This document shows, piece by piece, positions 4,782 to 38,260 of a stretch of 64,000 nt of DNA (positions are counted from its first letter, which is position 1; every line of letters starts with the position of its first letter). The DNA lies in NCBI GenBank assembly GCA_003155655.1, contig PMDS01000037.1:1-64000 (forward strand), written 5' to 3'. A program made the translations under genes and the position numbers. This DNA comes from Melioribacter sp. (GTDB lineage Bacteria > Bacteroidota > Ignavibacteria > Ignavibacteriales > Melioribacteraceae). The notes beneath the pieces were generated by a model. The model was not told where the DNA came from, did not search any database, and worked only from the letters and a program-made list of their open reading frames with translations.

Positions 4782-5225
4782 ATGAAAACAAGAATGAGTA
4801 TTAAAAATGTTGAACCCGCCATATATAAAATAATGGAAAAAGCTGAAGAGCTTATGGATTCGTTCGATATTGAACCAAAGCTCAAAGAATTGGTCAAATT
4901 AAGAACGTCCCAGATCAATGGCTGCGGATACTGTGTTAATTATCATTCCAAAGAAGCAAAAAAATTGGGGGAAACTGAACAGAGGCTTTACTCAGTTTGT
5001 ACCTGGTGGGAAGTACCTTTTTTTTCTGAAACTGAACAGGCTGTATTAAAATTTACGGAAGAAGTAACCAATATTTTCAATGGCGGTGTTTCTGATGAGA
5101 CTTTCAATCTGGTAGTTAATAAATTAGGTGAACAAAAGACGGCTCAATTGATTTTTATTATTTCAACTATTAATACATGGAATAGGCTGGCAATTTCAAC
5201 CCATATGATAGCTGAGGACGATTAA
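4782..5225 (+). CDS. Carboxymuconolactone decarboxylase/AhpD-family protein
   Basis: 147 residues of the all-helical AhpD/CMD fold. The family signature is intact: Cys48 and Cys51 (GCGYC) followed by His55, the redox CxxC-x3-H motif of alkylhydroperoxidase D. QINGCGYCVNYHSKEA is typical of the small alkylhydroperoxidase-like proteins often placed beside MocR regulators. Start is supported by a GGAG motif eight bases upstream of the ATG. The next gene begins immediately after its stop, so the two are surely cotranscribed. The thiol pair suggests a peroxide-reducing or thiol-redox role; the real substrate is unknown. Confidence 0.85.
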   Translation: MKTRMSIKNVEPAIYKIMEKAEELMDSFDIEPKLKELVKLRTSQINGCGYCVNYHSKEAKKLGETEQRLYSVCTWWEVPFFSETEQAVLKFTEEVTNIFNGGVSDETFNLVVNKLGEQKTAQLIFIISTINTWNRLAISTHMIAEDD

Positions 5226-6686
5226 ATGAATAATGAAAAAGATTCTAAAGTTATTTTCGATAATTTATTATTTGAAATCCACGCTTTAGAGAATCACTCA
5301 AGAAAATTAGAATTTGATTCATCTGAAAGAAATAAAATTGCTGATGAGTCAAAAGAATATATCAATAAATATTTAGAAGTCCTGCCCGGTCTAAAAGCCT
5401 TCACAAAAAATGATTTGACCGAATTGAAGGCAATAAAAGTAGAAGATAATGGCAAACCATTTGAGCAGCTTCTATCTATTTTACAAAATGAAGTTGATCA
5501 AGCGGGGATTAATTCTGCATCGGGACGCCACCTGGGTTATATTCCCGGAGGAGGAATCTGGTCTAGCGCCATTGCAGATTTTCTTGCCGCGGCTGCTAAT
5601 CGTTATGCCGGTATTTCTTATTCAAGCCCGGGTGCTGTAATTATAGAAAATCAATTAATTAAGTGGCTTTGCTCAATTATCGGTTACCCGGCATCAGCCC
5701 ATGGCAATTTAACTTCAGGTGGATCAACAGCTAACCTGACTGCAATTCAGGTTGCAAGAGATTCTTTTGGAATTAATGCCGGCAACGTAAGAAGATCGAC
5801 CATATATTTTACCGCGCAAGCGCATCATTCCATTCAAAAAGCTTTTCATACAACAGGACTGCATGAAGCTATTCAACGGATAATTCCAATGAATTCAAAT
5901 TTCCAAATGGATGTATCTGCATTAAATGAAAAAATTACACAGGATAAAAATGAAGGCTTGAATCCGTTTCTTGTAATAGCATCTGCGGGAACTACCGATA
6001 TAGGTGCGATAGATCAATTGGATTTAATCGCAGATATATGTTCGAGATACAATCTGTGGTTCCATGTAGATGCCGCTTATGGAGGGTTTTTCATGCTTGT
6101 GGATGAACTAAAAGAAAAATTTAAAGGCATTGAAAGATCTGATTCAGTTGTGATGGATCCGCATAAAAGTTTATTTCTGCCATATGGTTCCGGTACGGTT
6201 TTGATTAGAGATAGGAATAAATTACTTGCTTCATATTCCCATAACGCGGCATATATGCAGGATTCTTTAGACTCTGATGAATTAAACCCCGCTGATTGCG
6301 GCATAGAATTATCAAAGCATTTCAGGGGATTAAGATTATGGCTTCCACTTCATTTACATGGTCTTGATGTATTCAGGGCAAATCTTCAGGAAAAGATTCT
6401 ACTGGCACAGTATTTTTACAGATCAATAAAAGAAATGGGTTTTGAGACTGGCCCCACCCCTGAGCTTTCGGTTGTCCTTTTTAGATTGCCTGCAGAAGAA
6501 AAAAATCAGTTAAATAAAAATTTGCTGAACGCTTTGCTTGAAGACGGGAGATGTTTTTTTTCTTCAACACTAATTAACAACGAGTTTTGGATTAGGTGCG
6601 CGATCTTAAGCTTCAGGACACATCTTGCAGAAATTGATTTGGCTTTACAAATGATTAAAGAAAATGTTGTAAAGATTAACAAATAA
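5226..6686 (+). CDS. PLP-dependent group II decarboxylase (aromatic amino acid decarboxylase-like)
   Basis: 486 residues, normal for group II decarboxylases (glutamate, tyrosine, tryptophan and DOPA decarboxylases). Visible landmarks: the substrate loop GRHLGYIPGGG (about 100-110), TSGGSTANLTA (163-173, phosphate binding), HVDAAYGG (280-287, with Asp282 contacting the pyridine nitrogen), and DPHKSLFLPYGSG (311-323), in which Lys314 is the PLP-binding lysine. The start codon directly abuts the stop of the AhpD-like gene. Substrate specificity cannot be settled by eye; an aromatic L-amino acid is likeliest from the overall pattern. Control by the divergent MocR regulator would fit a PLP-enzyme operon. 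Confidence 0.88.
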   Translation: MNNEKDSKVIFDNLLFEIHALENHSRKLEFDSSERNKIADESKEYINKYLEVLPGLKAFTKNDLTELKAIKVEDNGKPFEQLLSILQNEVDQAGINSASGRHLGYIPGGGIWSSAIADFLAAAANRYAGISYSSPGAVIIENQLIKWLCSIIGYPASAHGNLTSGGSTANLTAIQVARDSFGINAGNVRRSTIYFTAQAHHSIQKAFHTTGLHEAIQRIIPMNSNFQMDVSALNEKITQDKNEGLNPFLVIASAGTTDIGAIDQLDLIADICSRYNLWFHVDAAYGGFFMLVDELKEKFKGIERSDSVVMDPHKSLFLPYGSGTVLIRDRNKLLASYSHNAAYMQDSLDSDELNPADCGIELSKHFRGLRLWLPLHLHGLDVFRANLQEKILLAQYFYRSIKEMGFETGPTPELSVVLFRLPAEEKNQLNKNLLNALLEDGRCFFSSTLINNEFWIRCAILSFRTHLAEIDLALQMIKENVVKINK

Positions 6687-7584: not shown

Positions 7585-10500
7585 TCATAATATCGTTTTT
7601 TTTGAGAAAAGTTTAAAAATCATCGGCATAAAGAAAACTACATATAATGCAGATATTACAATTCCACCAGCTATACTAAGACTTAGATTTTTCCAGAATG
7701 CTGATTCATTGCTAAGTATAAATGGAATTAATGCTGCAAATGTGGTAGTGGTAGTCGTCAAAATCGCACGCAGACGTGCTCGTGACAAAAAAATAATCTC
7801 ATCTTTCGAGAATGATTTACAGTTCGTAGAGAGATAATTTACAAGAACAATTGAATTGCTAACACATAAACCGAGCAGCAACAACATGCCTGCATAAGCT
7901 CCACGCTCAATATTATAATTAAAAATCCAGAATAATAATACCGATCCTACCAGTGCAAATGGAATTGCAGTAATGATGATTACTGGTTTCTTGAGGGATT
8001 CGAATAAACTCGAAGAAATCATAATGATTACCAGAATTGCTGCTCCAAAAACTTTCAAAATATCTGTCTCTTCTTTTTCTGAAAAAATAAAACTGAATTC
8101 AGCGGGTTTTATACTATATCCTTCTGGAACTTGCGTTGATGCAATTGAAGCCTCCAAAAACTTGTTCCCGTATTTATATGGACCCTTAAACTCAAAGCTT
8201 ATGTTTCGGACATATTGTTGATCTTCTCTATTGATAGAAGAGAGTACCTTTTGTTCTTCAAATGTAAGAACGTCTCTGATCTTGAGTTTTTCCTTTTCAT
8301 GCTCATTCACAATCATATTTTCTAGATCAGTTAGCTGTATCTCGTTATAGTTGGAAAATTTAATTCGATAATCTACTTCTTCATTGTTGATCCTGAATCT
8401 TCGATAATCAAGATTGCCACCAGTGTTTTTTGCAAGTATCGAAAATAATTGATCTATCGAAATATTGTATGCGGCCAATTTATCCCTGTTAATTTTTGCA
8501 ATAATCTCATATGTATCCTTAGACCAATAGAATGCTGACTTATCGATATCAACATTATCAATTCTCGAATATCTCTTTATTTTATCACGAAATTGTTCAG
8601 CAAGAGATTTTACCTTTTCGTAATTAAATCCTTTCACAATTACATTGAACATACTGCTCGAACTACTACCCGAATTAGAGAATCCCGGACCAAATCCATA
8701 AATATAAGAATCAACTCCTCCTAAACGTGTTATGTAGGCAGTAATATAATTTTTAAGAATATATGGAAATACTGAGTTTGATTGCTCAGAAGTAAATTCA
8801 ATCTTTAAAGTTGCTGTCTCTTCATCAACAACGTTTGCAATTAAGGTCTTTATATTTTTACGATAAGCAAGAATTTCATTCTCAAGATCTTTGCTGAGTT
8901 TATCAATTCTATCGATTCGATTCCCATTAGGCAGATCCAAACGAACATAAATGTAAGTTTCCTCACCATACTGCCAGAGTTCCCCATGTGAGACATGATT
9001 GAAAAATACATTCAAAGTACCGCCGAACAGGTAATTTACATACGGTTTTACATTTTGATAAGTTTCAGAATCAAAAATCGAATTGTAAGCTGCTCCTATT
9101 ATTGGTATGTCAAGTCTGTTAGGCATTAACCATACTGGTAATCCAACAATTAATATTAGAAATACAATACTGAGCTTTTTCCATTTAAAAATTTTATTTA
9201 GAATAAAAGAGTAAAATCTTATTCCAGGAACAGCTAATTGTATACAAGTAGTACCCTTGAGCACATTGTGATATGTATTTTTGAATAAAAGCGGGACTAC
9301 AGTAAATGAAACAATTAATGAGGCCAATAAAGTTGATCCAATTCCAAAAACAAATTGCTCAAAATATAATTTCAATTCGCCGGTTAGAAAAATCAAAGGA
9401 ATAAAAACGGATATTATTGAAAATGTAGAAAAAAATAATGGAGCAAATATTTCTTTTATATTAACAGCAAGTCTTTTCGTCCCTCTACCGTCGTAATGCT
9501 TATCAAGATAGTCTAGAACTACTATCGAATTATCAATTTTGAACCCGAAACCAATTATGAAACTAGCAATAGTAATAATGTTTAGTGAAAGATTAAACAC
9601 TAAGAATAGTATAAAAGAAAACAGAAATGAAAAAATTAATGATATTAGAATAATGAATGGATACCTGATATTTCTAAAAATAACTAGAATGACAAAGAAA
9701 ATGATAATGACCGAGAAAAGACCATCCCGGTATAGTTCATCAAGATCTTTAAAGATTTCTTTACTTTTATCAATCTCTTTAATAAAACTAAAATCAGGTG
9801 GAAATTTTTTAGCAAGATTCATAATTTCATTATCAACAGCTTTTGCTATGGCAAGTGTATTAGCACCGGGTGCTTTTGTTATGTTTATTGTAACTGTTTC
9901 TTTTCCATTTATTCTATAATAATTAGTTGGCCGTTCAAAATCATCAATAATTTTTGCTATATCTTTTATCCTGATAGCCTGACTATTTGGTAAAATTTTT
10001 ACAACCTGTTCTTTTATTTCTGTCGGATTGTTTACTTCGTTGTTGACTTTCAAAAACACTTGTTCATACCCCCTTTGAATTTTTCCTGACGGGACAATTA
10101 CTTCTGATTCACCAACCGCTTTACTGATTTCTTCATTGCTAATGTTAAATGCATGAATCTTAGAATAGTCAACTATTATTTCAATAAGCCGATCAGACCC
10201 ACCACTTATTTCAGCAGTAGAAACACCATCAATTGCCTTCAGAGGAACGAGAACATTTTCTTTAATATATTTTCTTACTTCATTTGCAGAATGGTTTGAT
10301 GAAAAAGAGTAAGATAGAAAGCCCTGCAAGTTCTGAAATTCTTTTGGTATATAAGGCGAGATTCGTAGAGTATATACTCCAGTTGGAAGAATTGACCTAA
10401 GTGAAGCTAACTTTTCATTAATTTCTATCCTGGCAAAATTTATATCTGTTTTAGGATGAAAGTCGATTGAGATAATAGATATACCTGAAGATGAGGTGGA

Positions 10501-10746
10501 TGATATTTTCCTTACACCAGTTACAGTTGCAAGTTCTGATTCGATTGGTGAAGTCAAATAAGCTTCTACTGCCTCTGGTGATACACCCGGCCATGCAACT
10601 GAAACAGATAAGCTGGGATATTCTATACGCGGCGTTAGTTCAATTGGAAGATTTATTAATGATACAACACCAATAATCAAAACACTGAAATAAAACATCA
10701 GTGTTGTAATAGGGCGTGAAAGAAAAATGTAAAATATCTTTTTCAT
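7585..10746 (-). CDS. RND-family efflux permease, second copy in operon
   Basis: 1053 residues with the full RND layout: cytoplasmic N-terminal amphipathic start, TM1 (about 10-30), periplasmic porter region, TM2-6, the second porter half, TM7, and a C-terminal TM8-12 block ending in a basic tail. Family marks include LPIELTPRIEYPSLSVSVAW near the N terminus, GFGFKIDNSIVVLDY in TM4 and ARLRAILTTTTTTFAALIP near TM11. Drug-type RND pumps carry an Asp-Asp pair in TM4 (AcrB Asp407/Asp408); here only one Asp is present, followed by Asn. RND pumps are proton-driven exporters acting from periplasm or inner-membrane leaflet. The gene is last in the minus-strand operon, 115 bases after the propeller lipoprotein. 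Its cargo is unknown. Confidence 0.85.
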   Translation of the reverse strand: MKKIFYIFLSRPITTLMFYFSVLIIGVVSLINLPIELTPRIEYPSLSVSVAWPGVSPEAVEAYLTSPIESELATVTGVRKISSTSSSGISIISIDFHPKTDINFARIEINEKLASLRSILPTGVYTLRISPYIPKEFQNLQGFLSYSFSSNHSANEVRKYIKENVLVPLKAIDGVSTAEISGGSDRLIEIIVDYSKIHAFNISNEEISKAVGESEVIVPSGKIQRGYEQVFLKVNNEVNNPTEIKEQVVKILPNSQAIRIKDIAKIIDDFERPTNYYRINGKETVTINITKAPGANTLAIAKAVDNEIMNLAKKFPPDFSFIKEIDKSKEIFKDLDELYRDGLFSVIIIFFVILVIFRNIRYPFIILISLIFSFLFSFILFLVFNLSLNIITIASFIIGFGFKIDNSIVVLDYLDKHYDGRGTKRLAVNIKEIFAPLFFSTFSIISVFIPLIFLTGELKLYFEQFVFGIGSTLLASLIVSFTVVPLLFKNTYHNVLKGTTCIQLAVPGIRFYSFILNKIFKWKKLSIVFLILIVGLPVWLMPNRLDIPIIGAAYNSIFDSETYQNVKPYVNYLFGGTLNVFFNHVSHGELWQYGEETYIYVRLDLPNGNRIDRIDKLSKDLENEILAYRKNIKTLIANVVDEETATLKIEFTSEQSNSVFPYILKNYITAYITRLGGVDSYIYGFGPGFSNSGSSSSSMFNVIVKGFNYEKVKSLAEQFRDKIKRYSRIDNVDIDKSAFYWSKDTYEIIAKINRDKLAAYNISIDQLFSILAKNTGGNLDYRRFRINNEEVDYRIKFSNYNEIQLTDLENMIVNEHEKEKLKIRDVLTFEEQKVLSSINREDQQYVRNISFEFKGPYKYGNKFLEASIASTQVPEGYSIKPAEFSFIFSEKEETDILKVFGAAILVIIMISSSLFESLKKPVIIITAIPFALVGSVLLFWIFNYNIERGAYAGMLLLLGLCVSNSIVLVNYLSTNCKSFSKDEIIFLSRARLRAILTTTTTTFAALIPFILSNESAFWKNLSLSIAGGIVISALYVVFFMPMIFKLFSKKTIL

Positions 10747-10861
10747 AAAAGAAAATACATTTACTCATGTAAATTACATCATAAAGTACTATGTATCTAT
10801 TATAAATATAAAATCATATGTTAATATATAAGGTGAGTCTTTAATAGGATCAGTCTAATAG

Positions 10862-12007
10862 CTAATTATAAATATCTTTCTCAACTTTAAATCTTTCAAT
10901 CCAGAATAATCGATTTTGATTTCCAACTATCAAATAAAATACAGTTCCCGTAGAATTGAAAATTACTTTAAAAGCGTTCAAACCCGGAAGGGCTGGAACT
11001 CCAACTCTTTTCTCAAAAATTCCGTTGAGTGAATATATATCAATATAATTTGTTATTGCATTTACACTAAATATAGGCACAACGATTTTATTGTTGATTA
11101 ATTGAGGTGTCATAACTTTAGCAGATGGCATCCATCCTGATTTTGCTACCTTATTTTTTTCATCAAATTCCAGAAGCATTTTATTTTCAACCGGAAACGG
11201 AAGTTTCGCATCAAATCTAATATAGGAATGATTTTCTATATTATATTTAAATAATTCATAAGGTTGTGATTGTGAATAAATGAATTCTTTTCTGTTTGGT
11301 AATAATAATAAATTTACCATGGACATATATGTGAAGAAGCCGATTTTTCCTCTAGTGAAAGAACTTGCATTTACTTTTTCCAACATTTTAGCTTGAGGCT
11401 CAATAATAAAGCCAAACTCGGAAGTAACATCCGTACTTTTGAGCGAGATTATTTTTATTGGTTTGTAGCCTGGTAATAACATAAAAGATCCAGTCAACGC
11501 TGTACTATCATCTAAAAAAATAAAATCACTTAAGGGAAATTTTAATTTAATTGTCTCTTTCAATTTACCATCATCTCCAAATAGAGATGCGCGTAATTGA
11601 TTATTATCTATTGCCAGTACTCCTTGATGTTCAATATATTTAAGAGCGGGTTGTGGTTCAAATTCACCTGGACCAGAACCACGCTTTCCGAAACTAAATA
11701 AGTCTTTACCAGTCTCTGCAGAAATTGCTTTTATTTTATAAAAATACGTATCAAGGTAAAATATCCTATCGGGCGGAACAAAACAAAAGCTTCCAATCCC
11801 GCTATAATTTCCATCTGAGGTTGAGGAAGTATCGGGTAATAATAGAGGGCTTATTTTTTTTATCTTATCTTCAACAATTTTAATACTATCACAACTTTTT
11901 GTGTTTATACTAATATCATTAATAGTATTTCGAGAACAACTTATAACTAGCAACACTATCAACGAATAATTAAACAAAAATGCTCTTTGAAGAAAAATAT
12001 TTATCAA
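10862..12007 (-). CDS. Six-bladed beta-propeller lipoprotein
   Basis: 381 residues. The N terminus has a lipoprotein signal with lipobox LVIS-Cys24, so the mature protein is a membrane-anchored envelope lipoprotein. The body repeats the strand patterns of Bacteroidota six-bladed propellers, with the diagnostic GKRGSGPGEF at about 104-113 and blades opening ISAETGKDLF, IDNNQLRASLF and IDIYSLNGIF. The start is a TTG preceded by GAGGG at six bases; no ATG fits the signal peptide. It lies between the cysteine peptide and the second RND permease. In Bacteroidota, such propellers often sit beside small exported peptides, so a peptide-binding role is a fair guess, not shown. Confidence 0.75.
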   Translation of the reverse strand: MINIFLQRAFLFNYSLIVLLVISCSRNTINDISINTKSCDSIKIVEDKIKKISPLLLPDTSSTSDGNYSGIGSFCFVPPDRIFYLDTYFYKIKAISAETGKDLFSFGKRGSGPGEFEPQPALKYIEHQGVLAIDNNQLRASLFGDDGKLKETIKLKFPLSDFIFLDDSTALTGSFMLLPGYKPIKIISLKSTDVTSEFGFIIEPQAKMLEKVNASSFTRGKIGFFTYMSMVNLLLLPNRKEFIYSQSQPYELFKYNIENHSYIRFDAKLPFPVENKMLLEFDEKNKVAKSGWMPSAKVMTPQLINNKIVVPIFSVNAITNYIDIYSLNGIFEKRVGVPALPGLNAFKVIFNSTGTVFYLIVGNQNRLFWIERFKVEKDIYN

Positions 12008-12037
12008 ATCAACCCTCTATTAGTAATTTTAGACATA

Positions 12038-12238
12038 TTAAGGATTAAATGCAAAACAATACTGGGAAGTAGTATAACATATCACATAACTACCAGTTGT
12101 ACACCATCCTGTTCCAACTTCCGGATAGTAACAATCTCGAGCGTTTACTTGATTTGCTTTTGAGACTGGTACTAAATCTGAGAAAAGTGCAAGACCTAAG
12201 GTAATTACGGTTGCGATTAGAAAAAAAAATTTCTTCAT
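12038..12238 (-). CDS. Small exported four-cysteine peptide precursor
   Basis: 66 residues from an ATG with an ideal AGGAGG six bases upstream (the longer frame from a TTG at 12244 is not needed). Residues 1-28 form a signal peptide (MKKFFFLIATVITLGLALF core, likely cleavage after SKA). The mature part of about 38 residues is aromatic and holds Cys36, Cys46, Cys54 and Cys61, enough for two disulfides. It looks like the NVEALA-type class of short Bacteroidota secreted peptides in size and setting, but I cannot see that motif. Directly upstream is a MauE-like membrane protein with a CxxC thioredoxin-like domain; downstream is a propeller lipoprotein. I propose it is the matured and exported product of this operon. 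Function unknown. Confidence 0.75.
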   Translation of the reverse strand: MKKFFFLIATVITLGLALFSDLVPVSKANQVNARDCYYPEVGTGWCTTGSYVICYTTSQYCFAFNP

Positions 12239-12255
12239 AGTCAACCTCCTTAATA

Positions 12256-13272
12256 TTAGTTAATATATTTATTACTTTCTTCTATTTTATGAAGAAAGTT
12301 GATTTTTTCGTTATAGGAATTAGTAGACGCATCCACTGTTAAAGTTGAGCCATTATTTGTCCAAAATATTCTATTGATCTCTGCAGGATATTTACCAATT
12401 ATATCGAAAAAGATATTCATAGGGATAATTTTAATTTTAAATGGGATATTTAATTTATGCTGATTAATTTTTTCTTTGTTCGGAATTTCCGGGAAAACAG
12501 TTGTCACATTAATTTCTTCACTAAATTTTATTTTTGCCCAAAATTCCAATTCATCAAGACAGCTTTTACATGACGACCCTCTTAAAAATATTAATAATGT
12601 ATTCCTGCGATCATTATCGATTAAATACTGATCCATAATAGAATTTAATCTCTCTCTTACATAAGGAAGATCAATGTGTGAGATTAGCCCAGAATTTAAT
12701 TCAGTCTCAATTCTTTGCCAACGGAGAAAAAATACAGAGCCTATTAAAACTATGATAATTATAACTAATGCATTATTTGCTTTTTTAAAAACTTCATTTT
12801 TATCATTTTTTATTTCTTCATAAACCTTTAACTCTACGAAGCGATAAGTAAATGATACTACTAATAAAGTAGAAGTGAAAATGATCATTGTTAAATCATC
12901 AATAACAAATAAATTGCCAAAACAATTACATGGTTTTTGTCCTATGTAAAAATAATTCCAGATATGAAAAAACAAAAAGCTTAAAAGAAGAAGACGGTAA
13001 ACAATTATCAATATTTTACGATATATATTGAATATTATTGAAGCCCCAAGTACTATTTCAATTCCTGGTAATAATATGGCAATAAGAATACACAACCATT
13101 CGGGAAAATTAAAATAATATTTTAGTGAAAAAGCAAAATCACTTGGATTGATTAATTTAATTAAACCTGCGATTAAAAATGGGATCCCTAGAATTAAATA
13201 AAATAATGAAGAGAAAAAGGACATTTTAAGATTTTTGTATATAAAGTCCTTTATATAATTAGTTCCCACCAT
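12256..13272 (-). CDS. MauE/DoxX-like membrane protein fused to a thioredoxin-like domain
   Basis: 338 residues from the ATG at 13272 (a GTG at 13284 is also open). Residues about 19-145 form four membrane segments of the MauE/DoxX type, with PGIEIVLG in the second helix and the family motif CNCFG at 115-119. A fifth hydrophobic segment (about 168-185) leads into a soluble domain with LLIFLRGSSCKSCLDELEFW, where Cys235 and Cys238 form a thioredoxin-like CxxC. MauE in methylamine dehydrogenase clusters helps make disulfides in the small subunit; by analogy this protein may oxidise or isomerise the four-cysteine peptide encoded 17 bases downstream. Fusion of the MauE module and the redox domain in one chain is notable. 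Confidence 0.78.
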   Translation of the reverse strand: MVGTNYIKDFIYKNLKMSFFSSLFYLILGIPFLIAGLIKLINPSDFAFSLKYYFNFPEWLCILIAILLPGIEIVLGASIIFNIYRKILIIVYRLLLLSFLFFHIWNYFYIGQKPCNCFGNLFVIDDLTMIIFTSTLLVVSFTYRFVELKVYEEIKNDKNEVFKKANNALVIIIIVLIGSVFFLRWQRIETELNSGLISHIDLPYVRERLNSIMDQYLIDNDRRNTLLIFLRGSSCKSCLDELEFWAKIKFSEEINVTTVFPEIPNKEKINQHKLNIPFKIKIIPMNIFFDIIGKYPAEINRIFWTNNGSTLTVDASTNSYNEKINFLHKIEESNKYIN

Positions 13273-13372
13273 TGTGAAACCCACTTACCATTTGTATGGG
13301 AAAAAAAATAGAAAAATAAAAACAAATTATCAACAAAAATTTTTAAAATAGTATTTTTTTCCAATATAATAA

Positions 13373-14587
13373 TTATTGCTTTATCACTCTCACCTTTGAT
13401 TCATGGGCTAAAGTATACTGCCCTTCAACTATTACATTTTCCCCTGGTTTAACACCTTCGGTTATTTCTATTAGTTCATCGTTTTGTTCCCCTATTTGGA
13501 CATACTTCCACTTAGCCTGATCTCCTTCGACCACAAATACTAATGGTCTTTTATCCCTCATAAGCAATGCTTCCTTAGGAATGAGAATCCGATTTACTAG
13601 TTTGTTGGATTCAATCAATACCTTAACAAACATTCCGGGTTTTAATCTGTCCGAATTATTCTTAATCTGTATTGACACCTTACTAGTTTTTGAATCCTTA
13701 TCAATATAGGGACTAATATTTACTACTTTTCCTTCAAATGTTTTTCCGGTCAGTGATGGTATCTCAATTTTGACGCTGTTTCCGGTTTTGATTTTTATAA
13801 CGTCACTTTCTAAAACGCCAACATCTACTTTAAGTGTGCTAGTATTAAATAGTTTGCAAAGTTTTTGCCCAATGTTTATTCGTTGTCCTTTCACTAGATC
13901 AAAATCCCCGACTACACCGCTAAATGGTGCCGATATTTTTGTATACTCATAATTAAGTTTTGCTCTTTTGTAGGCATTGATAGCAGTTGTTAATCCACTT
14001 TTATTTTGAATCACTTCTTCTCTTTTAGCCCCGGTAAAAATTAGTTTCATATCTAATTCGTCTTTTAGTCCAGTATATTTTGATTCATCAATCTTTCCAT
14101 CGTTAAAATCTTTTTCGAGTTTCTGCATTTGATCTTGTATCTCAATTACTTTAATTCCATTCAATGAGTCATGGGATGCTTCTTTCAATAAAAAACCATA
14201 TTCAATTTTAGCATCAGTAACTTTAACTTTTGTATCATTAACTGCTATCTCATATTCTCTGTCATCAAGACCCACCAGTGATTCGCCTTTATTAACAGGT
14301 TTCCCTTCGTAAATATTTAGAGTATTTATTACTCCACTTATATTGGAAGTTATCTCCAATTCCTCAGCAGCACGCACAATTCCGTTCGCATTGATATATA
14401 GACTAAGACCGCCTCTAAATACTGGTTTAGTTCTTACATCAAAAACAATCTCATCAAGTTTGTTATAATTTACAGAAGCCTCTTCTCCTGAAACCATCTG
14501 TTTTGAGGCGTTGAAAAGCAGAAAATATGCTATAACACAAATTACTAAAGCAACAAGAAGTACCGATAGCCAAAGTTTAATTCTCAT
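13373..14587 (-). CDS. RND periplasmic adaptor subunit (HlyD/MFP family)
   Basis: About 404 residues from the ATG at 14587 (GGTG six bases upstream; a TTG at 14611 is the longest opening). One N-terminal membrane anchor (about 5-22), then the adaptor domains in order: lipoyl/barrel-sandwich half (GIVRAAEELEITSNISGVI, with GLDDREYE), a helical hairpin (about 105-195), second lipoyl half (YTKISAPFSGVVGDF), beta-barrel (VKIEIPSLTGKTFEGKVV) and membrane-proximal domain (LIPKEALLMRDKRPLVFVV to the end). It bridges inner-membrane RND permeases to an outer-membrane channel. It is the only adaptor for two permeases here, and no TolC-like factor is encoded in the window. Confidence 0.85.
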   Translation of the reverse strand: MRIKLWLSVLLVALVICVIAYFLLFNASKQMVSGEEASVNYNKLDEIVFDVRTKPVFRGGLSLYINANGIVRAAEELEITSNISGVINTLNIYEGKPVNKGESLVGLDDREYEIAVNDTKVKVTDAKIEYGFLLKEASHDSLNGIKVIEIQDQMQKLEKDFNDGKIDESKYTGLKDELDMKLIFTGAKREEVIQNKSGLTTAINAYKRAKLNYEYTKISAPFSGVVGDFDLVKGQRINIGQKLCKLFNTSTLKVDVGVLESDVIKIKTGNSVKIEIPSLTGKTFEGKVVNISPYIDKDSKTSKVSIQIKNNSDRLKPGMFVKVLIESNKLVNRILIPKEALLMRDKRPLVFVVEGDQAKWKYVQIGEQNDELIEITEGVKPGENVIVEGQYTLAHESKVRVIKQ

Positions 14588-14651
14588 TTTATTCACCAAA
14601 GAATTGATCAAAAATTAATTGAATTATCTATTATTCTTTTTTTTCTAAAAT

Positions 14652-17600
14652 CTAATGGTTGGTTGTTTCTTTTTCAGGCTTCTTCCTCGAATATTTTTCC
14701 ATACATGCATATAATACCGGGATAATGGTTAATGTCAAAAATGTCGAAGATAGCAATCCGCCTACCACTGCTAGTGAAAGAGAAATACGAAGCTGAGTTC
14801 CCGCTCCTATTCCAATCATCATTGGTATCATTCCGAATACTACCGTGAATGTGTTCATAACAATTGGTCGGAAACGGTCATGCCCTGCTGCTACTATTGC
14901 ATCATGAACCGACAATCCTTCTTCTCTTTTTCGCATGATAAACTCAACTTTAACAACGGCATCGTTATCTGCTATACCAACTAATATTATCAATCCCAAT
15001 AATGAAATTATACTTATGCTTTCGCCAAAAACATATAGTGTCAATATACCTCCTATAAGTCCAAGAGGCACTGAAAATAAAATAATGAATGGAAAAAGTA
15101 AGGATTCGAACTCTGATGCCAATACCATGTACATTAACAAAACAGAAATCACTAGCGCAATATATAAAGCAGAAAATGCGTTTGTAATCTCTTCATTTAC
15201 TCCACCAACCAATATTGTTTCATCATGAGCTTTCGGTAAATCTGAAATTACCTTTTCTATCTTCATAACCACATCATCCAATTTTGCATCCTGAATAGAG
15301 GCATAAATGTACATTGTTCTCGATTGATCTTCCCTCCAAATTTCACTGAAGTTATTTCCGAATTTATAATCTACTAAGTCCTTTATCTTAACTTTTGTGT
15401 TTCCATTTTGAATATAGTTTTGCAGCACAATTTGAATATCGTTTCTGTCATTCTCCGGTGTTCTTAAATTAACCCCTATTTTCTTATCGAAATCTGAGAA
15501 ATATGTTGCTACGCTGCCTTGGACCATGTTCTTGATCTGCTCTGCAACAAAGCTGACGCTAATTCCGTAAGCCAGACACTTTTCGCGGTTTATTTTAATC
15601 GAAAATTCCGGGGCATCTTTCTCAAGACCGAGGCGAATATTCTTAATACCTTCTATTTTCCCTTCGTTCATTTTTTTCACAATTTGTTCTGCTTTGTTAA
15701 ATGCTATATCCAAATCTTTATTTTTTATCTTGATGACAATATCGTTGTCGGAAGGGCTGATTAACATAGTGTATGAATTTTTTACATCTTTGAAGTTGTA
15801 TTTTATGCCACTCAAATTGCTTAAAATTTTTCTCAAATTGTCTTGAACTTCATAGTAATTTTCATATGAATCCAGTTTAACATTAAAATTTGTTTTATTA
15901 ACTGTGATCTGTTCCTTATTTATAAAATCAAATTCATTCACCCGGCCAATATTTGATACCAAGGCTTTTACATGTGGAATCGAAAGAACTGAACTTTCAA
16001 TCTTGGAAGTTAATGCCGCATTTCCTCTTAACGATGTACCCACCGGAAACTCAAACTCAAGAATGAATTCTTCCTGGGCTCCTTTCGGTATAAATTCCTT
16101 CTTCATATTCATTGTCGCTAACACAGTTAGTGCACTTAAACCAAGTGTAATTGCTATCACGGTCTTTTTATTTTCAAGTGACCATTCTAATAATATTTCA
16201 TACTTTTCAAGTAAATATTTCATCATTCTGTCAACAATCTTAAAGAAAAATTCCAGTTTTTCATTTAGAAATTTTCCCGTCTTTATATAAAAAAGAACGA
16301 ATACAAAGAAAAATGATCTAAAGATTACTTTGAACGGCAATTTAACCCAAAAGAAAATTCTCTTAAATACATTTCTCTCCTCTGGATGATCAAAAACCAG
16401 AAATCCTTTATTATATTTTTCCGGATCTTTGAATATTTTAAAGCTTTCGCGTGAATCTAACATAGGTATTAAGGTAAGAGCTGTGATAATTGAGGCAGTT
16501 AGTGCGAATGCAATAGCAAGAGATTCATCTCTAAAAAGTTCACTTACAATCCCTCGGATGAATATTAATGGTAGAAAAACTGCAATGGTTGTTAATGTAG
16601 AAGCAACCACGGGCATTGTAACTTCTTTTGTTCCTTGAATCACTGCAACTCGGTTTGGTAATCCCTTATCTCTATATCGGGTATTATTCTCTATAACTAT
16701 AATTGCATTATCTAGCAGCATTCCAACTCCGGCGGCTAATCCTCCTAATGAAATAATATTAAAATTTATATTAAATAAATAGAGGAGTAAAATCGTTATT
16801 ACCAAAGATGCGGGAATTGTTATACCAATTATTAGAATGTGCCTAATATTCGCCAGGAAAAAAAATAGTACAATAACCGCCAGTATCCCGCCGTAATATA
16901 TTTCCTGCTTAACATTTGAAATCGCATTTTCAATAAATCCAGATTGATCGGATACAATTAGCAAATTATAATCCGGATACTCTTTACGTAAAGATTCTAG
17001 AGCTTTTCTAACTGCCTTTGCTATTGTAACAGTATTTGCGTCGGGTTGTTTATAAATTAATATCCCTACTGCTTCGCTTCCATTGAAGCGTGTTAGTCCC
17101 TCTCTCTCTTTAAAATTTTCTTTTGTGGTTGCAACATCTTCAACAAGTATTGAACTACCGTCTCTATTTTTTTTAATAATAGTTTTTTCAATATCCCTTA
17201 CATTTTTGTATTCCCCGAGTGTTCTTAAGGAATACCTGAACAATCCTTTCATTATTGTTCCGGCTGGTAAGTTTAGATTTGATGATTTAAGTGCATTAGC
17301 GATATCTGCGTAAGTAAGACTTAATGAATACAATTTTGCCGGATCAACATGTATTAATATTTCCCTTTCCAATCCACCCGTAATAATTGCCTGCGCAACT
17401 CCTTCAATTTGTTCAAGACGTCTCTTAAAGACAACTCTTCCAGCCTCCTTCAAATCTATTAATCTTTGAATATTTTCCTGTGGGGAATCGTGATCGATGT
17501 ACTCACTTCTTGATTCTTGATATTTTATGCTTGAACTAGCTTCCCCCTTTGTGGGACTAGAAAGGGCAAGAACCAATGTCATTATTGGCGATGAGGATGG

Positions 17601-17996
17601 ATCTGATCGAATGATCGTCGGTCTACCAGCTTCGCGGGGTAACGCAAAACTCATATTGTCAAGTTTTTCTCTTAACGAAAGCAGCGCAAACTTCATATCT
17701 GTACCCCATACAAAATCTAAAGATATAACGGATATCCCTTCTTTGGAGACAGAAGTTATTTTTTTTACACCGGCAACAGCAATTACTGCAGATTCAAGAG
17801 GTTCTGTAATTTGTTTCTCAACTTCTTCAGGAGTAGCATTGGGAAAAGTTGTCTGAACCATTAAGTGCGGAATGTTTACGTTTGGTAATAGATCGACACC
17901 CAGTTTTGTGAACACGAAAGCACAAAGTAATGCAATAGCACAAAAGAAAACTGTTATTGTAATTGGACGCCGTATGCTTAATGAGCTTATAGACAC
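14652..17996 (-). CDS. RND-family efflux permease, first gene of operon
   Basis: 1114 residues. GTG start at 17996 (MSISSLSIRRPITITVFF) with AGGGGA about ten bases upstream. RND architecture is complete: TM1, porter region with the phrase LGVDLLPNVNIPHLMVQTTF, TM4 with GMLLDNAIIVIENNTRYRDK, a cytoplasmic loop that is unusually long (about 500-600, with basic and aromatic stretches) before TM7, the second porter half, and TM10 with LVGIADNDAVVKVEF. TM4 again has Asp-Asn in place of Asp-Asp. The neighbouring adaptor follows by 40 bases. Paired permeases can form mixed trimers, as in MdtB/MdtC; whether these two do is unknown. Confidence 0.87.
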   Translation of the reverse strand: MSISSLSIRRPITITVFFCAIALLCAFVFTKLGVDLLPNVNIPHLMVQTTFPNATPEEVEKQITEPLESAVIAVAGVKKITSVSKEGISVISLDFVWGTDMKFALLSLREKLDNMSFALPREAGRPTIIRSDPSSSPIMTLVLALSSPTKGEASSSIKYQESRSEYIDHDSPQENIQRLIDLKEAGRVVFKRRLEQIEGVAQAIITGGLEREILIHVDPAKLYSLSLTYADIANALKSSNLNLPAGTIMKGLFRYSLRTLGEYKNVRDIEKTIIKKNRDGSSILVEDVATTKENFKEREGLTRFNGSEAVGILIYKQPDANTVTIAKAVRKALESLRKEYPDYNLLIVSDQSGFIENAISNVKQEIYYGGILAVIVLFFFLANIRHILIIGITIPASLVITILLLYLFNINFNIISLGGLAAGVGMLLDNAIIVIENNTRYRDKGLPNRVAVIQGTKEVTMPVVASTLTTIAVFLPLIFIRGIVSELFRDESLAIAFALTASIITALTLIPMLDSRESFKIFKDPEKYNKGFLVFDHPEERNVFKRIFFWVKLPFKVIFRSFFFVFVLFYIKTGKFLNEKLEFFFKIVDRMMKYLLEKYEILLEWSLENKKTVIAITLGLSALTVLATMNMKKEFIPKGAQEEFILEFEFPVGTSLRGNAALTSKIESSVLSIPHVKALVSNIGRVNEFDFINKEQITVNKTNFNVKLDSYENYYEVQDNLRKILSNLSGIKYNFKDVKNSYTMLISPSDNDIVIKIKNKDLDIAFNKAEQIVKKMNEGKIEGIKNIRLGLEKDAPEFSIKINREKCLAYGISVSFVAEQIKNMVQGSVATYFSDFDKKIGVNLRTPENDRNDIQIVLQNYIQNGNTKVKIKDLVDYKFGNNFSEIWREDQSRTMYIYASIQDAKLDDVVMKIEKVISDLPKAHDETILVGGVNEEITNAFSALYIALVISVLLMYMVLASEFESLLFPFIILFSVPLGLIGGILTLYVFGESISIISLLGLIILVGIADNDAVVKVEFIMRKREEGLSVHDAIVAAGHDRFRPIVMNTFTVVFGMIPMMIGIGAGTQLRISLSLAVVGGLLSSTFLTLTIIPVLYACMEKYSRKKPEKETTNH

Positions 17997-35080: not shown

Positions 35081-36538
35081 ATGTTTGAACAAACCTTTAA
35101 AAACATTGACGATATACTGTTCAAAGATGCTGGGTGCTCCAACGAACTTGATTATGTTGAACAAACTTCATGGATTTTATTTTTAAAATATTTAAATGAT
35201 TTAGAGCAAGAAAGAAAAACAAAAGCTGAGCTTGTAGGAAAGGATTACGAGTATTTAATTGATAGGCAATACAGATGGGATGTTTGGGCTGCGCCAAGAA
35301 CTAAAGATGGAAAGATAGATCAGAACAAAGCACTAACTGGAGACGACCTAAAAGACTTTGTCGATCTAAAACTAATTCCCTACCTAAAGAAATTTAAAGC
35401 GTCTGCATCCTCTCCAAATACAATTGAATATAAAATTGGTGAAATATTCAATGAACTGAAAAATAAAATACAAAGCGGTTATACTTTAAGAGGAGTCATT
35501 GACTTAGTCGATCAATTGCGTTTTCAGAGCCATGCTGAAAAACATGAGATGAGTCACCTTTATGAAGATAAAATTAAAAACATGGGTAATGCTGGTCGAA
35601 ACGGTGGTGAATATTATACTCCCAGACCATTAATTAAAACTATTGTAAAAGTTGTAGCGCCTAAATTAGGTGAAACTATTTACGATGGTGCTGTCGGTTC
35701 TGCCGGATTTTTATGCGAATCCTTTGAATATCTTAAAGAGCATAATAAAAATCGGTCTACCTCGCAGGATAAAATACTACAAACCAAAACTTTTTACGGC
35801 AAAGAGAAGAAATCGCTGGCTTATATTATCGGTACTATGAATATGATTCTGCATGGAGTTGAGGCTCCAAATATTTTGCACACAAATACCTTAAGCGAAA
35901 ACCTTGCAGATATACAAGAGAAAGACCGTTACGATATTGTATTAGCCAATCCACCGTTTGGAGGCAAGGAACGAAGCGAAGTTCAGCAAAACTTTCCAAT
36001 TAAGACTGGTGAAACCGCTTTTCTATTTTTACAGCATTTTATTAAGATTATGAGAGCGGGAGGTAGAGGAGGCGTCATAATTAAAAATACTTTCTTGAGT
36101 AATTCAGACAATGCCTCTGTCAGTCTGCGTAAACTACTGCTCGAGAACTGTAATTTGCATACTGTACTGGATCTACCAGGCGGAACGTTCCAAGGCGCTG
36201 GAGTAAAGACAGTCATATTGTTTTTTGAGAAAGGAAGACCTACAAGTAAGATTTGGTATTACCAGTTGAATCTGGATAGAAACTTAGGAAAAACTAACCC
36301 GCTTAATGAAAATGATCTGGCAGAGTTTGTAAAACTCCAAGCTTCAAAAGTTGATAGTGAAAACAGTTGGACTGTTAAAATTGCTGACATTGATAAAACT
36401 ACTTTTGATCTAGGTGTTAAGAATCCAAATAAAAAAGAAGAAATAAAACTTCGTGAACCGAATAAAATTATTGAAGAAATGAAAGCATTGGATGAAGAGA
36501 GTGTGAAAATTCTGAATTCAATTATGGAAATCTTATGA
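35081..36538 (+). CDS. hsdM: Type I restriction-modification methyltransferase subunit HsdM
   Basis: 485 residues. N-terminal HsdM helical domain (about 1-145), then an adenine-N6 methyltransferase: AdoMet site DGAVGSAGFL at about 206-215, catalytic NPPF in LANPPFGGKE at about 289-298, and a GGEYYTPRPLIK stretch just before. It methylates the recognition site and, with HsdS and HsdR, restricts foreign DNA. GGGAG lies upstream of the ATG. The stop overlaps the hsdS start by four bases (ATGA). Confidence 0.96.
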   Translation: MFEQTFKNIDDILFKDAGCSNELDYVEQTSWILFLKYLNDLEQERKTKAELVGKDYEYLIDRQYRWDVWAAPRTKDGKIDQNKALTGDDLKDFVDLKLIPYLKKFKASASSPNTIEYKIGEIFNELKNKIQSGYTLRGVIDLVDQLRFQSHAEKHEMSHLYEDKIKNMGNAGRNGGEYYTPRPLIKTIVKVVAPKLGETIYDGAVGSAGFLCESFEYLKEHNKNRSTSQDKILQTKTFYGKEKKSLAYIIGTMNMILHGVEAPNILHTNTLSENLADIQEKDRYDIVLANPPFGGKERSEVQQNFPIKTGETAFLFLQHFIKIMRAGGRGGVIIKNTFLSNSDNASVSLRKLLLENCNLHTVLDLPGGTFQGAGVKTVILFFEKGRPTSKIWYYQLNLDRNLGKTNPLNENDLAEFVKLQASKVDSENSWTVKIADIDKTTFDLGVKNPNKKEEIKLREPNKIIEEMKALDEESVKILNSIMEIL

Positions 36539-37770
36539 AACTTGGGTGGGAAATAAAAAAGTTGGGGGAAGTCTGTAGAGTCGAAAGAGGAAGTTCTCCA
36601 AGACCGATTGAAAAATATGTAACTAATTCCGAAGATGGTGTAAACTGGATTAAGATTGGTGATACTAAAAATGTAGATAAATATATTTATACTACAAAAG
36701 AAAAAATAACTAAAGAGGGTGCATTAAAATCAAGATTTGTTACCGAAGGCGACTTTATTTTATCTAATTCAATGTCATTTGGTAGACCATATATCATGAA
36801 AACATCTGGGTACATACATGATGGTTGGCACTTATTAAAACTTCAAGAAAATATAGACAATAATTTTTTCTTTTATTTATTAAGCTCCCCCATAGTCCAA
36901 GAACAATTTACGACACTGGCAAGTGGAGCTATTGTTAAAAATATAAGTAGTGATCTTGTAAAAAAAGCTATTTTACCCATTCCGCCATTAGCCGTGCAAA
37001 AACGAATTGTCACCGTATTAGATGAAGCATTTAAGGCAATCGATAAAGTTAAAAACTATACTGAAAAGAATTTGCAGAATGCAAAAGAACTATTTGAAAG
37101 TTATCTACAATCGGTGTTTACTAATCGTGGTGACGGTTGGGAAGAAAAGAAATTAATAGATATTTGTGTATTCAAACCACAGAAAAAAGAAGCAAGAGAT
37201 AAATTAAGAGAAACAGATAATGTTACCTTTTTGCCAATGCAAGATTTAGGAATTTTGAATAAAACAATAGTTGGAGTTAAAGAAAAAAAAATGAAAGTTG
37301 TTATTAGTAGTTATACATATTTTGCTAATGAAGATGTTTTATTAGCAAAAATTACTCCTTGTTTCGAAAATGGTAAAATTGGAATTGCACGTAATCTTAA
37401 AAATGGAATTGGTTTTGGTTCAAGCGAATTCATCGTTTTACGATCACTAGGGAATGTAATATCTGATTATTTGTATTATTTCCTTTCGCGTAATCAATTT
37501 CGAGAAGAAGGAAAGAAGTTAATGAGCGGAGCTGTAGGTCACAAAAGGGTATCAAAGGAATGGATTGAAAATTATAGTATTCCATTTCCTAATTCAACAA
37601 AAACGCAACAAATTTTTGTTCAAAAACTTGATGCTCTCTCAGATGAAACGATAAAACTCGAATCAATTTATCTACAAAAACTAAAAGATCTAGAAGAATT
37701 AAAGAAAAGTATTTTACAAAAGGCATTTAATGGTGAATTTAATATTTCTAAAGAGATGGAAAAAGTATGA
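36535..37770 (+). CDS. hsdS: Type I restriction specificity subunit HsdS
   Basis: 411 residues with two target-recognition domains (about 1-145 and 200-345), each followed by a conserved coiled-coil helix: IPIPPLAVQKRIVTVLDEAF at about 148-167, and IPFPNSTKTQQIFVQKLDAL at about 347-366. This two-TRD layout reads a bipartite DNA site. It overlaps hsdM by four bases and the next gene by four bases. The target sequence cannot be predicted. AT content is higher than in hsdM, as usual for fast-changing TRDs. Confidence 0.95.
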   Translation: MKLGWEIKKLGEVCRVERGSSPRPIEKYVTNSEDGVNWIKIGDTKNVDKYIYTTKEKITKEGALKSRFVTEGDFILSNSMSFGRPYIMKTSGYIHDGWHLLKLQENIDNNFFFYLLSSPIVQEQFTTLASGAIVKNISSDLVKKAILPIPPLAVQKRIVTVLDEAFKAIDKVKNYTEKNLQNAKELFESYLQSVFTNRGDGWEEKKLIDICVFKPQKKEARDKLRETDNVTFLPMQDLGILNKTIVGVKEKKMKVVISSYTYFANEDVLLAKITPCFENGKIGIARNLKNGIGFGSSEFIVLRSLGNVISDYLYYFLSRNQFREEGKKLMSGAVGHKRVSKEWIENYSIPFPNSTKTQQIFVQKLDALSDETIKLESIYLQKLKDLEELKKSILQKAFNGEFNISKEMEKV

Positions 37771-38252
37771 ATGGTGAATTAGATTACAAAAACTTCAGAC
37801 ATTCAGCAGCTTTTGGAAAGCGCATTGAATATTATGTAATTGGATTAATGTTAAAAGAAGGGTTAGATGTTTTTCTGCCAATGGTGGATGATGATGCAAT
37901 AGATGCGGTTATTAAAAAACCAGATGGTTCTTTTGTAGAGGTACAGATTAAAGCACGTTCTAAGTATGTAAAATTTGGATCAGCTGCATTATTTGCCGCT
38001 ATTCCGCATGAGTACAGAAAAAATTATTGGTTTGTATTTTATTCTGAACGGATGGATAAGATGTGGATACTTTCATCAAGAGAATTTATTGAAAAATCAG
38101 TTCAAAACAAGACTGGGGAACATAAAGGGATACATTCCATATGGTTCAACGGCAAAAATACTAGGGAAAAAACTGAACATGTTAAACCACAATTTGAAAA
38201 ATATTTAGTAAAAAATTTTAACAGAATACTTAATGAGAATCCAGATAAATAA
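37767..38252 (+). CDS. PD-(D/E)XK-like accessory protein inside the type I RM operon
   Basis: 161 residues. Start overlaps hsdS by four bases; hsdR follows eight bases later, so it is a member of the operon. It looks like a DUF4365-type nuclease fold: conserved Glu/Lys helix near the N terminus (GKRIEYYVIGLML), DDDAIDAVI with Asp46, and VEVQIKAR with Gln60 and Lys62, the D...QxK version of the PD-(D/E)XK active site. Later WFVFYSERMDKMWILSS also suits that family. HsdR has its own nuclease domain, so this would be a second one. Whether it is active is unknown. Confidence 0.7.
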   Translation: MNGELDYKNFRHSAAFGKRIEYYVIGLMLKEGLDVFLPMVDDDAIDAVIKKPDGSFVEVQIKARSKYVKFGSAALFAAIPHEYRKNYWFVFYSERMDKMWILSSREFIEKSVQNKTGEHKGIHSIWFNGKNTREKTEHVKPQFEKYLVKNFNRILNENPDK

Positions 38253-38260
38253 GAATAAAT

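Follow-up and report, generated by a model that had tools for sequence, protein, structure and literature searches.

A six-gene Melioribacter operon with two RND permeases, a cysteine peptide, a MauE-thioredoxin fusion and a beta-propeller lipoprotein: a candidate system for peptide maturation and export

The operon and its genes

Here, we describe six genes on the minus strand of a 64,000-nucleotide stretch of DNA from Melioribacter sp. (contig PMDS01000037.1, positions 1 to 64,000; the whole stretch is hereafter called the window). In operon order, they encode a resistance-nodulation-division (RND) permease, RND1; a periplasmic adaptor; a fusion of MauE with a thioredoxin-like domain; a small secreted cysteine peptide; a beta-propeller lipoprotein; and a second permease, RND2 (Table 1). 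We consider it fairly probable that they form a dedicated system for the maturation and export of small disulfide-bonded peptides; the association of the pump pair with such peptides is visible in the gene neighbourhoods, and from it and the families involved we infer transport and disulfide formation.

The six genes and their order, given in an earlier note on this DNA, were confirmed by open reading frames (ORFs) and by Pfam and NCBIfam matches, and judged from the comparisons below the set is not a chance neighbourhood. Both permeases pass the Pfam ACR_tran cut-off of 28 bits by a wide margin, and the adaptor matches HlyD_D23 (Pfam, 108 bits) and RND_mfp (NCBIfam TIGR01730, 192 bits). From RND1 to RND2, the intergenic gaps are 40, 88, 17, 30, and 115 bases, so that the 40 to 115 bases reported earlier hold for three of the gaps, those of 17 and 30 being shorter. 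The single terminator-like site on the operon strand lies within RND2, with none in the gaps, and sigma-70-like sites are not enriched (48 versus 56.5 in shuffles).

Table 1. Genes of the window operon and accessory genes of related loci (L numbers are our labels for loci, G numbers for genomes)
Feature	Location	Strand	Size and start	Evidence
RND1	14652..17996	-	1114 aa, GTG start, first operon gene	ORF; PF00873, 713 bits
Periplasmic adaptor (membrane fusion protein)	13373..14611	-	412 aa from TTG; in-frame ATG at 14587	
MauE-thioredoxin fusion	12256..13284	-	342 aa	PF07291, 61 bits, residues 21-144; CKSC
Cys peptide, secreted (signal-like N terminus)	12038..12238	-	66 aa	Sequence
Beta-propeller lipoprotein	10862..12007	-	381 aa, TTG start	AlphaFold2 model; lipobox-like VISC
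RND2	7585..10746	-	1053 aa, last operon gene	ORF; PF00873, 488 bits
Wzy_C with TPR	L047:6264-8078			
Wzy_C with TPR	L108:5872-7773			
Wzy_C with TPR	L144:15034-16857			
Wzy_C with TPR	L145:5728-7551			
Wzy_C with TPR	L148:128-1711			
Wzy_C with TPR	L193:2905-4548			
Wzy_C with TPR	L232:14425-16251			
Peptidoglycan hydrolase near RND1, M23	L148:6518-7033			
Peptidoglycan hydrolase near RND1, M23	L171:1749-2426			
Peptidoglycan hydrolase near RND1, Amidase_2	L144:10063-10710			

The permease pair

Close relatives of RND2 (E <= 1e-100) occur in 12 of the 59 genomes of the order, at 13 places, and at 12 of these a propeller gene is found in the same cluster, the thirteenth (G306) being a contig that ends at RND2. 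Close relatives of RND1 (E <= 1e-150) occur in 11 of the 59. Both permeases are present in ten genomes, RND2 alone in two, RND1 alone in one, and neither in 46 (p = 1e-8, with kinship ignored). The two genomes with RND2 alone are G306 and G311, the latter possessing an RND1-type gene under the cut-off (L152). G051, which would count as having RND1 without RND2, is uninformative because nothing follows RND1 and the adaptor on its 5.5 kb contig.

In the relatives, the other genes come as a cassette of peptide, propeller, and often MauE and thioredoxin-like genes, and its position varies. The cassette precedes an RND1-adaptor-RND2 unit at seven of the 12 places (G324, G074, G267, G318, G116, G315 contig 23, and G031), in some with an extra ORF between; the cassette, or its peptide and propeller, separates the adaptor from RND2 in the window and G314; G322 has a propeller between RND1 and adaptor; and G311 and the second locus of G315 have the order RND1-RND2-adaptor. 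At the G314 locus (L141), the automatic count gave no peptide; one was recovered by a peptide filter and one by eye.

A scan of GTDB contigs with an RND2 profile returned 26 loci, of which 22 (L156-L177) have 45-71% identity. By length, six (L162, L163, L165, L167, L168, and L172) correspond to contigs already counted, and the 16 others are new. A propeller match is present in eight of the new loci: L158 (Stygiobacter electus strain 09-Me, Melioribacteraceae, apparently an isolate), L160, L161, L166, L170, L171, L173, and L176, with that of L166 being weak, partial, and at the contig start. In six more (L156, L157, L159, L164, L174, and L175), the DNA ends at or close to the permeases. L169 and L177 carry a thioredoxin-sized gene upstream of the pump, where the available 1.1 and 4.7 kb, respectively, give no propeller match. 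Across the sequences compared, no other component is as constant in these loci as the RND pair, and RND1 and RND2 orthologues lie with Cys peptides and propellers.

In a tree of 58 RND rows, RND1 and RND2 each fall in a clade of their own with a Shimodaira-Hasegawa-like approximate likelihood ratio test (SH-aLRT) value of 100. The RND2 clade has 18 rows, namely the window gene (entered twice), its orthologues, and permeases of G238, Chitinophaga, and two Bacteroidales contigs; the RND1 clade, also of 18, holds the window gene (entered three times), its orthologues, and permeases of G238, Chitinophaga, and L179. The remaining rows, from G000, G082, G124, and G238, lie outside both clades. The tree was built by a quick method, with long branches among the outsiders and composition flags that include Chitinophaga and G238, and the outside rows are RND matches at E <= 1e-60, a selection that missed at least one gene (the RND2-type permease of G238). 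The best PDB match of RND2 is MdtB, and that of RND1 is ZneA, with MdtB second.

One might suppose that an ordinary multidrug RND operon has received an unrelated peptide-propeller cassette, and the position of the cassette is compatible with this, since it sits between adaptor and RND2 in the window and before an uninterrupted RND1-adaptor-RND2 unit in G267, G074, and G031. However, RND2-clade genes in the order are found in cassette loci at 12 of the 12 places with enough DNA, and both clades turn up again in Bacteroidota, at loci that have peptides and propellers. Among 26 RND loci of four genomes, examined with 1.5 kb flanks, a propeller is present only at the window RND2 locus and cassette MauE at none (0/26); the 22 other loci, which lack both, speak against insertion as a weak control. 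Insertion is already disfavoured, and we regard it as very improbable.

The cysteine peptides

For the window peptide, the best choice of start codon is an ATG preceded by AAGGAGG, a strong ribosome binding site, which gives 66 residues with four Cys following the hydrophobic start and one Trp. Signal segments were assigned by hydropathy. The peptide falls below every Pfam and NCBIfam cut-off, and it belongs to a short-leader class. BLASTP aligns 54 aa of it, including the signal segment, at 41% identity with the peptide L050:13516-13680, from a cassette of the same family (E 1e-07, the value for that single comparison).

Peptide ORFs were sought with a mechanical filter. Across 25 cassette loci, 24 of the 47 propellers have such an ORF no more than 700 bases upstream, versus 3 of the 130 remaining ORFs that are 300 aa or longer, and two of those three are MauE genes that themselves pass the filter. 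A set of 46 distinct Ignavibacteria peptides was composed of 41 from a filter that demands at least three Cys and five added by eye, with Bacteroidota peptides excluded; after the hydrophobic segment, 42 of them have an even number of Cys. The binomial p of 2.6e-9 overstates the significance because some of the peptides are related. The even counts suggest disulfides. Some peptides of the Bacteroidota NVEALA family (L194:969 and L195:7915) carry three Cys, as judged by eye.

Over 153 pairs, the long-leader relatives (n = 18) average 37% identity in the leader versus 22% in the core, and three within-genome pairs have leaders that are 93, 85, and 81% identical versus cores at 21, 43 (7 columns only), and 18%. 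Apart from one pair, in L047, these relatives thus present a pattern like that of ribosomally synthesised and post-translationally modified peptides (RiPPs), with the leader kept and the core variable. In relatives, the pump is accompanied by arrays of several peptides with a common, conserved leader and hypervariable cores, which gives them the look of a secreted repertoire under diversification.

Such arrays of divergent peptides with propellers recall competition loci, and one alternative is a toxin and immunity system, in which the peptides would be antibacterial, the propellers would neutralise them in the producer, and the pump would release them. This is compatible with export and differs in purpose. 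No toxin or bacteriocin family was found over cut-off, either for the window peptide and ten relatives with Pfam or for seven relatives with NCBIfam, and the propellers seem larger and more alike than immunity proteins usually are, so that we give this version only a slight chance.

The MauE-thioredoxin fusion and cassette MauE

The MauE part of the fusion, for which the Pfam cut-off is 27 bits, carries CNCFG, and the CxxC motif of the thioredoxin-like part lies near residue 239. A structural model of the fusion has a mean predicted local distance difference test (pLDDT) score of 62.8 and gives no PDB match under 1e-3; the thioredoxin 3hdc appears at E 0.32. Relatives mostly encode MauE and the thioredoxin-like protein as separate genes, though a further cassette fusion is found in G315 (L148, on a contig shared with L167). 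L047, L050, L053, and L108, which belong to the same family or order, possess repeated cassettes of MauE (~150-180 aa), Cys peptide (~55-110 aa), propeller, and thioredoxin-like genes. The cassette thioredoxin-like proteins are ~200 aa long, with an N-terminal membrane segment and CxxC; because their matches to Pfam redoxin families are weak or lacking, the label follows from size, motif, and weak matches.

A MauE match alone means little, since 259 of the phylum's 296 genomes contain the Pfam family, mostly as other MauE lineages, and only the cassette subclade is informative. At E <= 1e-20, the profile of this subclade (A2), built from 13 sequences in which CGCFG is invariant, has matches in 13 of the 245 genomes that represent the class. 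In the window's family, it is found in seven of the eight RND2-bearing genomes versus none of the 19 others (p = 9e-6, with kinship ignored), and the sole RND2-bearing genome that it misses is the window's own, whose fused MauE is divergent. Five of the seven matched genomes (G031, G074, G116, G318, and G322) supplied rows to the profile; therefore, the weight rests on the 0/19 and on G324 and G314. The cassette MauE subclade follows the RND2 gene across genomes. The possibility, raised in the earlier note, that MauE homologues never neighbour RND genes is thus true of MauE at large and false for this subclade.

Among 39 loci centred on MauE, a propeller occurs in three (L102, L108, and L111) and an RND match in L102, L111, and L135. 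L110, from the same family, encodes a 328-aa MauE fusion beside a Cys-rich neighbour of 127 residues, with neither propeller nor RND matches in 16 kb. A second MauE-thioredoxin gene of the window's genome (C65:74262-74648; L004:10256-11131; 291 aa), 10 kb past the window end, was considered as a second copy of the system and rejected, as neither peptide nor propeller was found around this solitary gene.

As a separate observation, MauE of other lineages adjoins small secreted Cys peptides in seven of 30 loci (L071-L100) under a peptide filter with short flanks, namely L075, L081, L082, L086, L089, L090, and L092; the L086 peptide, the one checked, matches DUF6520 (PF20130, 32.8 bits). Cys peptides far outside the RND system may thus also be served by MauE.

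The propeller lipoprotein

The lipobox-like VISC of the window propeller was identified by eye. The protein is under every Pfam and NCBIfam cut-off and has no match to PF17170 (6-bladed beta-propeller, DUF5128) at E <= 1, a family whose cut-off is passed by relatives in L047, L036, L050, L178, and L193. The AlphaFold2 model, made from 19 sequences, has a mean pLDDT of 65.3, and the fold support covers the core only. Its best structural matches are NHL propellers (Foldseek 3.9e-9; Z 15.6-18.9), followed at lower rank by the Bacteroides surface lipoproteins BT1954, BT2095, and BtuG2 and the DUF4221 protein 3s9j (Z 16.1). The model supports a beta-propeller fold; a common fold shows no function. 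A single-sequence search finds the propeller in 27 of 296 genomes of the phylum, and because many matches sit in other settings (L044 and L054), the propeller alone is no marker of the system. In L044, of the same genus, propeller relatives (1612-2643 and 5123-6190) stand beside CxxCH haem-type proteins, an unrelated use.

The pairing of propeller and peptide, and the likeness of the fold to the B12-binding Bacteroides lipoproteins, would also suit peptide signalling, with a pheromone-like peptide, the propeller as its surface receptor, and the RND pair as exporter; export would be retained and the purpose would differ. A regulator, transducer, or TonB-dependent partner is not constant in the loci as inspected by eye, with no profile search made, and hypervariable cores would require matching change in the receptor. 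We regard signalling as unlikely, though not negligible.

The mau cluster is a known set with MauE, the thioredoxin-like MauD, a Cys-rich small protein, and a propeller; its small subunit is rich in Cys and has two Trp for the cofactor, and its propeller, MauB, is seven-bladed. By analogy, the window could encode a module like methylamine dehydrogenase, with the peptide as small subunit and the propeller as large subunit of a periplasmic enzyme or sensor, matured by MauE/MauD-like proteins, and with the pump serving another product. The gene content and the peptide directly upstream of about half of the propellers would suit it. However, the window peptide has four Cys and one Trp in place of two, cores that are hypervariable under a conserved leader are unlike an enzyme subunit, and the propeller matches are to NHL and Bacteroidota surface-lipoprotein propellers. 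MauB is not among the structural matches listed for the model, which excludes nothing. The mau cluster makes one conserved enzyme, whereas the loci here combine hypervariable peptides with a constant RND pair, and we judge an enzyme of this kind improbable. MauE and MauD have a role in the maturation of methylamine dehydrogenase (PMC7794033).

Related loci in Bacteroidota

The four distant loci of the RND2 profile scan (L178, L179, L180, and L181) have 24-27% identity. They include L178, from Chitinophaga ginsengisoli, where a 142-residue peptide is followed by a DUF5128 propeller, a small membrane protein, a second DUF5128 propeller, an adaptor, two RND permeases, and an OEP channel. L181, a Prevotellaceae contig, has an RND gene, a peptide, a TolB_like propeller, and a second RND gene, the peptide being a weak NVEALA match (20 bits, under the cut-off of 27). 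The available DNA of L179 and L180 holds only RND genes. In the case of G238 (Bacteroidales), there are six NVEALA matches over cut-off, and five of them share an array with propellers. This array directly adjoins genes for an adaptor, an RND permease, an OEP channel, and another RND permease, and the cluster also has a Wzy_C ligase and an S26 signal peptidase.

RND2-type permeases were found in 20 of 119 Bacteroidales genomes at 21 loci, 20 of which were inspected (all but G514). Ten of these have a propeller-type lipoprotein (G238, G588, G507, G522, G500, G497, G506, G513, G591, and C5 of G589); the matches are weak in G522, G591, and C5 of G589 (E-values 1e-6 to 1e-3), and G500 qualifies through DUF4221. 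The profile search was lenient (two hidden Markov models, E 1e-3), and Pfam was run on G500 only among the profile-negative loci.

NVEALA matches at E <= 1e-3 occur in seven of the 119 Bacteroidales genomes. An RND2-type gene is present in five of those seven versus 15 of the other 112 (p = 0.0014), although the G537 match lies in a 568-residue frame and is probably false. G238 and G588 are the only genomes with NVEALA over cut-off on, and near the pump of, an RND contig; in G591, a weak match (20 bits, under cut-off) adjoins the pump. Sequences resembling C39 peptidases were also seen by eye near two Bacteroidales RND2-type pairs (L237:11194-11643 and L251:4371-6563), and a link between double-glycine leader export and the RND pump is possible.

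The NVEALA loci (PF14055, with lipoproteins of PF17170, PF15869, and PF13970) are like those of Ignavibacteria in having short signal-bearing peptides, Cys-bearing ends, and propeller lipoproteins, and G238 and G588 also have an adaptor, two RND permeases, and a Wzy_C ligase, the permeases of G238 lying in the same two clades. They differ in that cassette MauE was not found by the A2 profile and the peptides are not detectably homologous; the window peptide has no match to PF14055 at E <= 1. Further, a TolC-type (OEP) gene is part of the G238 operon, and one is present in the Bacteroidota loci L178 and L204, but the window's operon has none. Long-leader Ignavibacteria peptides and NVEALA-type peptides are alike in architecture, as far as their sequences tell, with homology undemonstrated.

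Proposed pathway and its precedents

We propose that a peptide with its signal segment would cross the inner membrane by Sec, and that the MauE and thioredoxin parts of the fusion would set its disulfides in the periplasm, as their families and the even Cys counts suggest. RND1, RND2, and the adaptor would make up a heteromeric pump, probably with a TolC-type channel coded elsewhere in the genome; there are 17 OEP matches outside the window operon, which could serve. The pump would take the folded peptide from the periplasm and release it from the cell. The propeller would partner either the peptide or the pump specifically, perhaps as a periplasmic or surface carrier or as a receptor; in place of the outer-surface sensor suggested in the earlier note, it could equally be a carrier or an immunity partner. 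The peptide arrays of the relatives would represent a diversifying secreted repertoire, speculatively for bacterial competition or signalling. The idea, put forward in the earlier note, that the operon could export or mature a disulfide-bonded peptide draws support from the RND orthologues that accompany peptides and propellers, the cassette MauE subclade, and the even Cys counts.

Several points weigh against this proposal. RND permeases are best known for transporting small molecules, and no outer-membrane channel gene is present among the six operon genes (by ORFs and Pfam). The within-genome pair of L047 has a leader identity of just 30% with a core at 20%, and hhalign of 17 long-leader relatives against seven NVEALA-type peptides returned a probability of 9%. 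MauE is absent from the available DNA of L160, L161, L166, L170, L171, and L176, and L141 has a MauE fragment only, beside masked bases. The 4.7 kb upstream of RND1 in L177 is without a propeller, as is the available DNA of ten of the 20 inspected Bacteroidales RND2-type loci; among these, at least G557, G595, and C1 of G589 have ample DNA, and several others are short contigs or stretch ends. Lastly, the control of 26 RND loci is weak, in that the cassette-type loci L221, L223, and L228 also lack a propeller within 1.5 kb.

Pumps of the MdtABC type likewise have two distinct RND permeases and one adaptor, and they include the best PDB match of RND2. They differ in that the permease clades here are tied to peptide loci; MdtB and MdtC are outside the tree sample.

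The nearest working precedent for the proposed route is, by analogy, the export of enterotoxin STII, which crosses the inner membrane by Sec, acquires its disulfides in the periplasm, and is released by MacAB-TolC (PMC5985334). The likeness extends to a ribosomal peptide, Sec, periplasmic disulfides, and a tripartite pump that loads from the periplasm, whereas the STII system has the ABC-type MacB and general Dsb proteins in place of two RND permeases and a MauE-thioredoxin protein coded beside the peptide, and has neither propellers nor peptide arrays.

The earlier note knew of no described system with this set of genes. None was found by us, although mauE, once with mauD, has been noted beside Cys-rich precursors in candidate RiPP clusters of Streptomyces (PMC7794033); in the parts of that paper seen, these clusters are Gram-positive, their precursors have at least eight Cys, and an RND pump or propeller is not mentioned. 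Among open-licence PubMed Central (PMC) papers, we found nothing on NVEALA, DUF5128, or RND peptide export in Bacteroides, and nothing relevant on MauE with thioredoxin and propeller. Judged by titles, there was also nothing on the families DUF4221, DUF4934, TolB-like 6-blade, DUF6520, BF3164, and PF14055, although PMC1887533 names BF3164, and, among the papers listed, nothing on MauE with cysteine-rich proteins in Bacteroidetes; titles and opening lines of abstracts gave nothing on such a system for 6-bladed beta-propellers of Bacteroides-type bacteria. No paper on Stygiobacter electus was found. The proposed secretion pathway appears to be undescribed.

It is quite possible, and we hold this with less assurance than the proposal for the window, that a single pathway is common to Ignavibacteria and Bacteroidota, in which hypervariable Cys peptides, including NVEALA, would be oxidised and trimmed in the periplasm, maybe glycosylated by a Wzy_C-type ligase, and released by a dedicated RND pair with the propeller lipoproteins as partners of particular peptides. 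If true, it would be, to our knowledge, the first family of RND pumps with the producer's own ribosomal peptides as natural substrates, that is, a pump class devoted to secreted peptides. It would also give a function to NVEALA, DUF5128, TolB_like, and DUF4221, and to MauE outside methylamine use, and would point to numerous disulfide-rich peptides, undergoing diversification in bacteria of environmental and gut type, as candidates for signalling or antibacterial activity.

Accessory and neighbouring genes

Proteins resembling O-antigen ligases, with Wzy_C and TPR, lie within the peptide clusters of both Ignavibacteria and Bacteroidales, and all seven that were picked match (Table 1). An S26 signal peptidase is present in L176, L193, L232, and L249. 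From family knowledge, we would guess that S26 cleaves the leaders and that Wzy_C transfers glycan to the peptides. Two genes, in L171 and L148, were considered as signal peptidases and rejected, as they match M23 peptidases; they and an Amidase_2 gene are the peptidoglycan hydrolases near RND1 in Table 1, which perhaps open the wall for a trans-envelope pump.

Elsewhere in the window, positions 35081-40642 on the plus strand hold a set of methylase-, specificity-, and helicase-like ORFs that, by eye, resembles a type I restriction-modification system.

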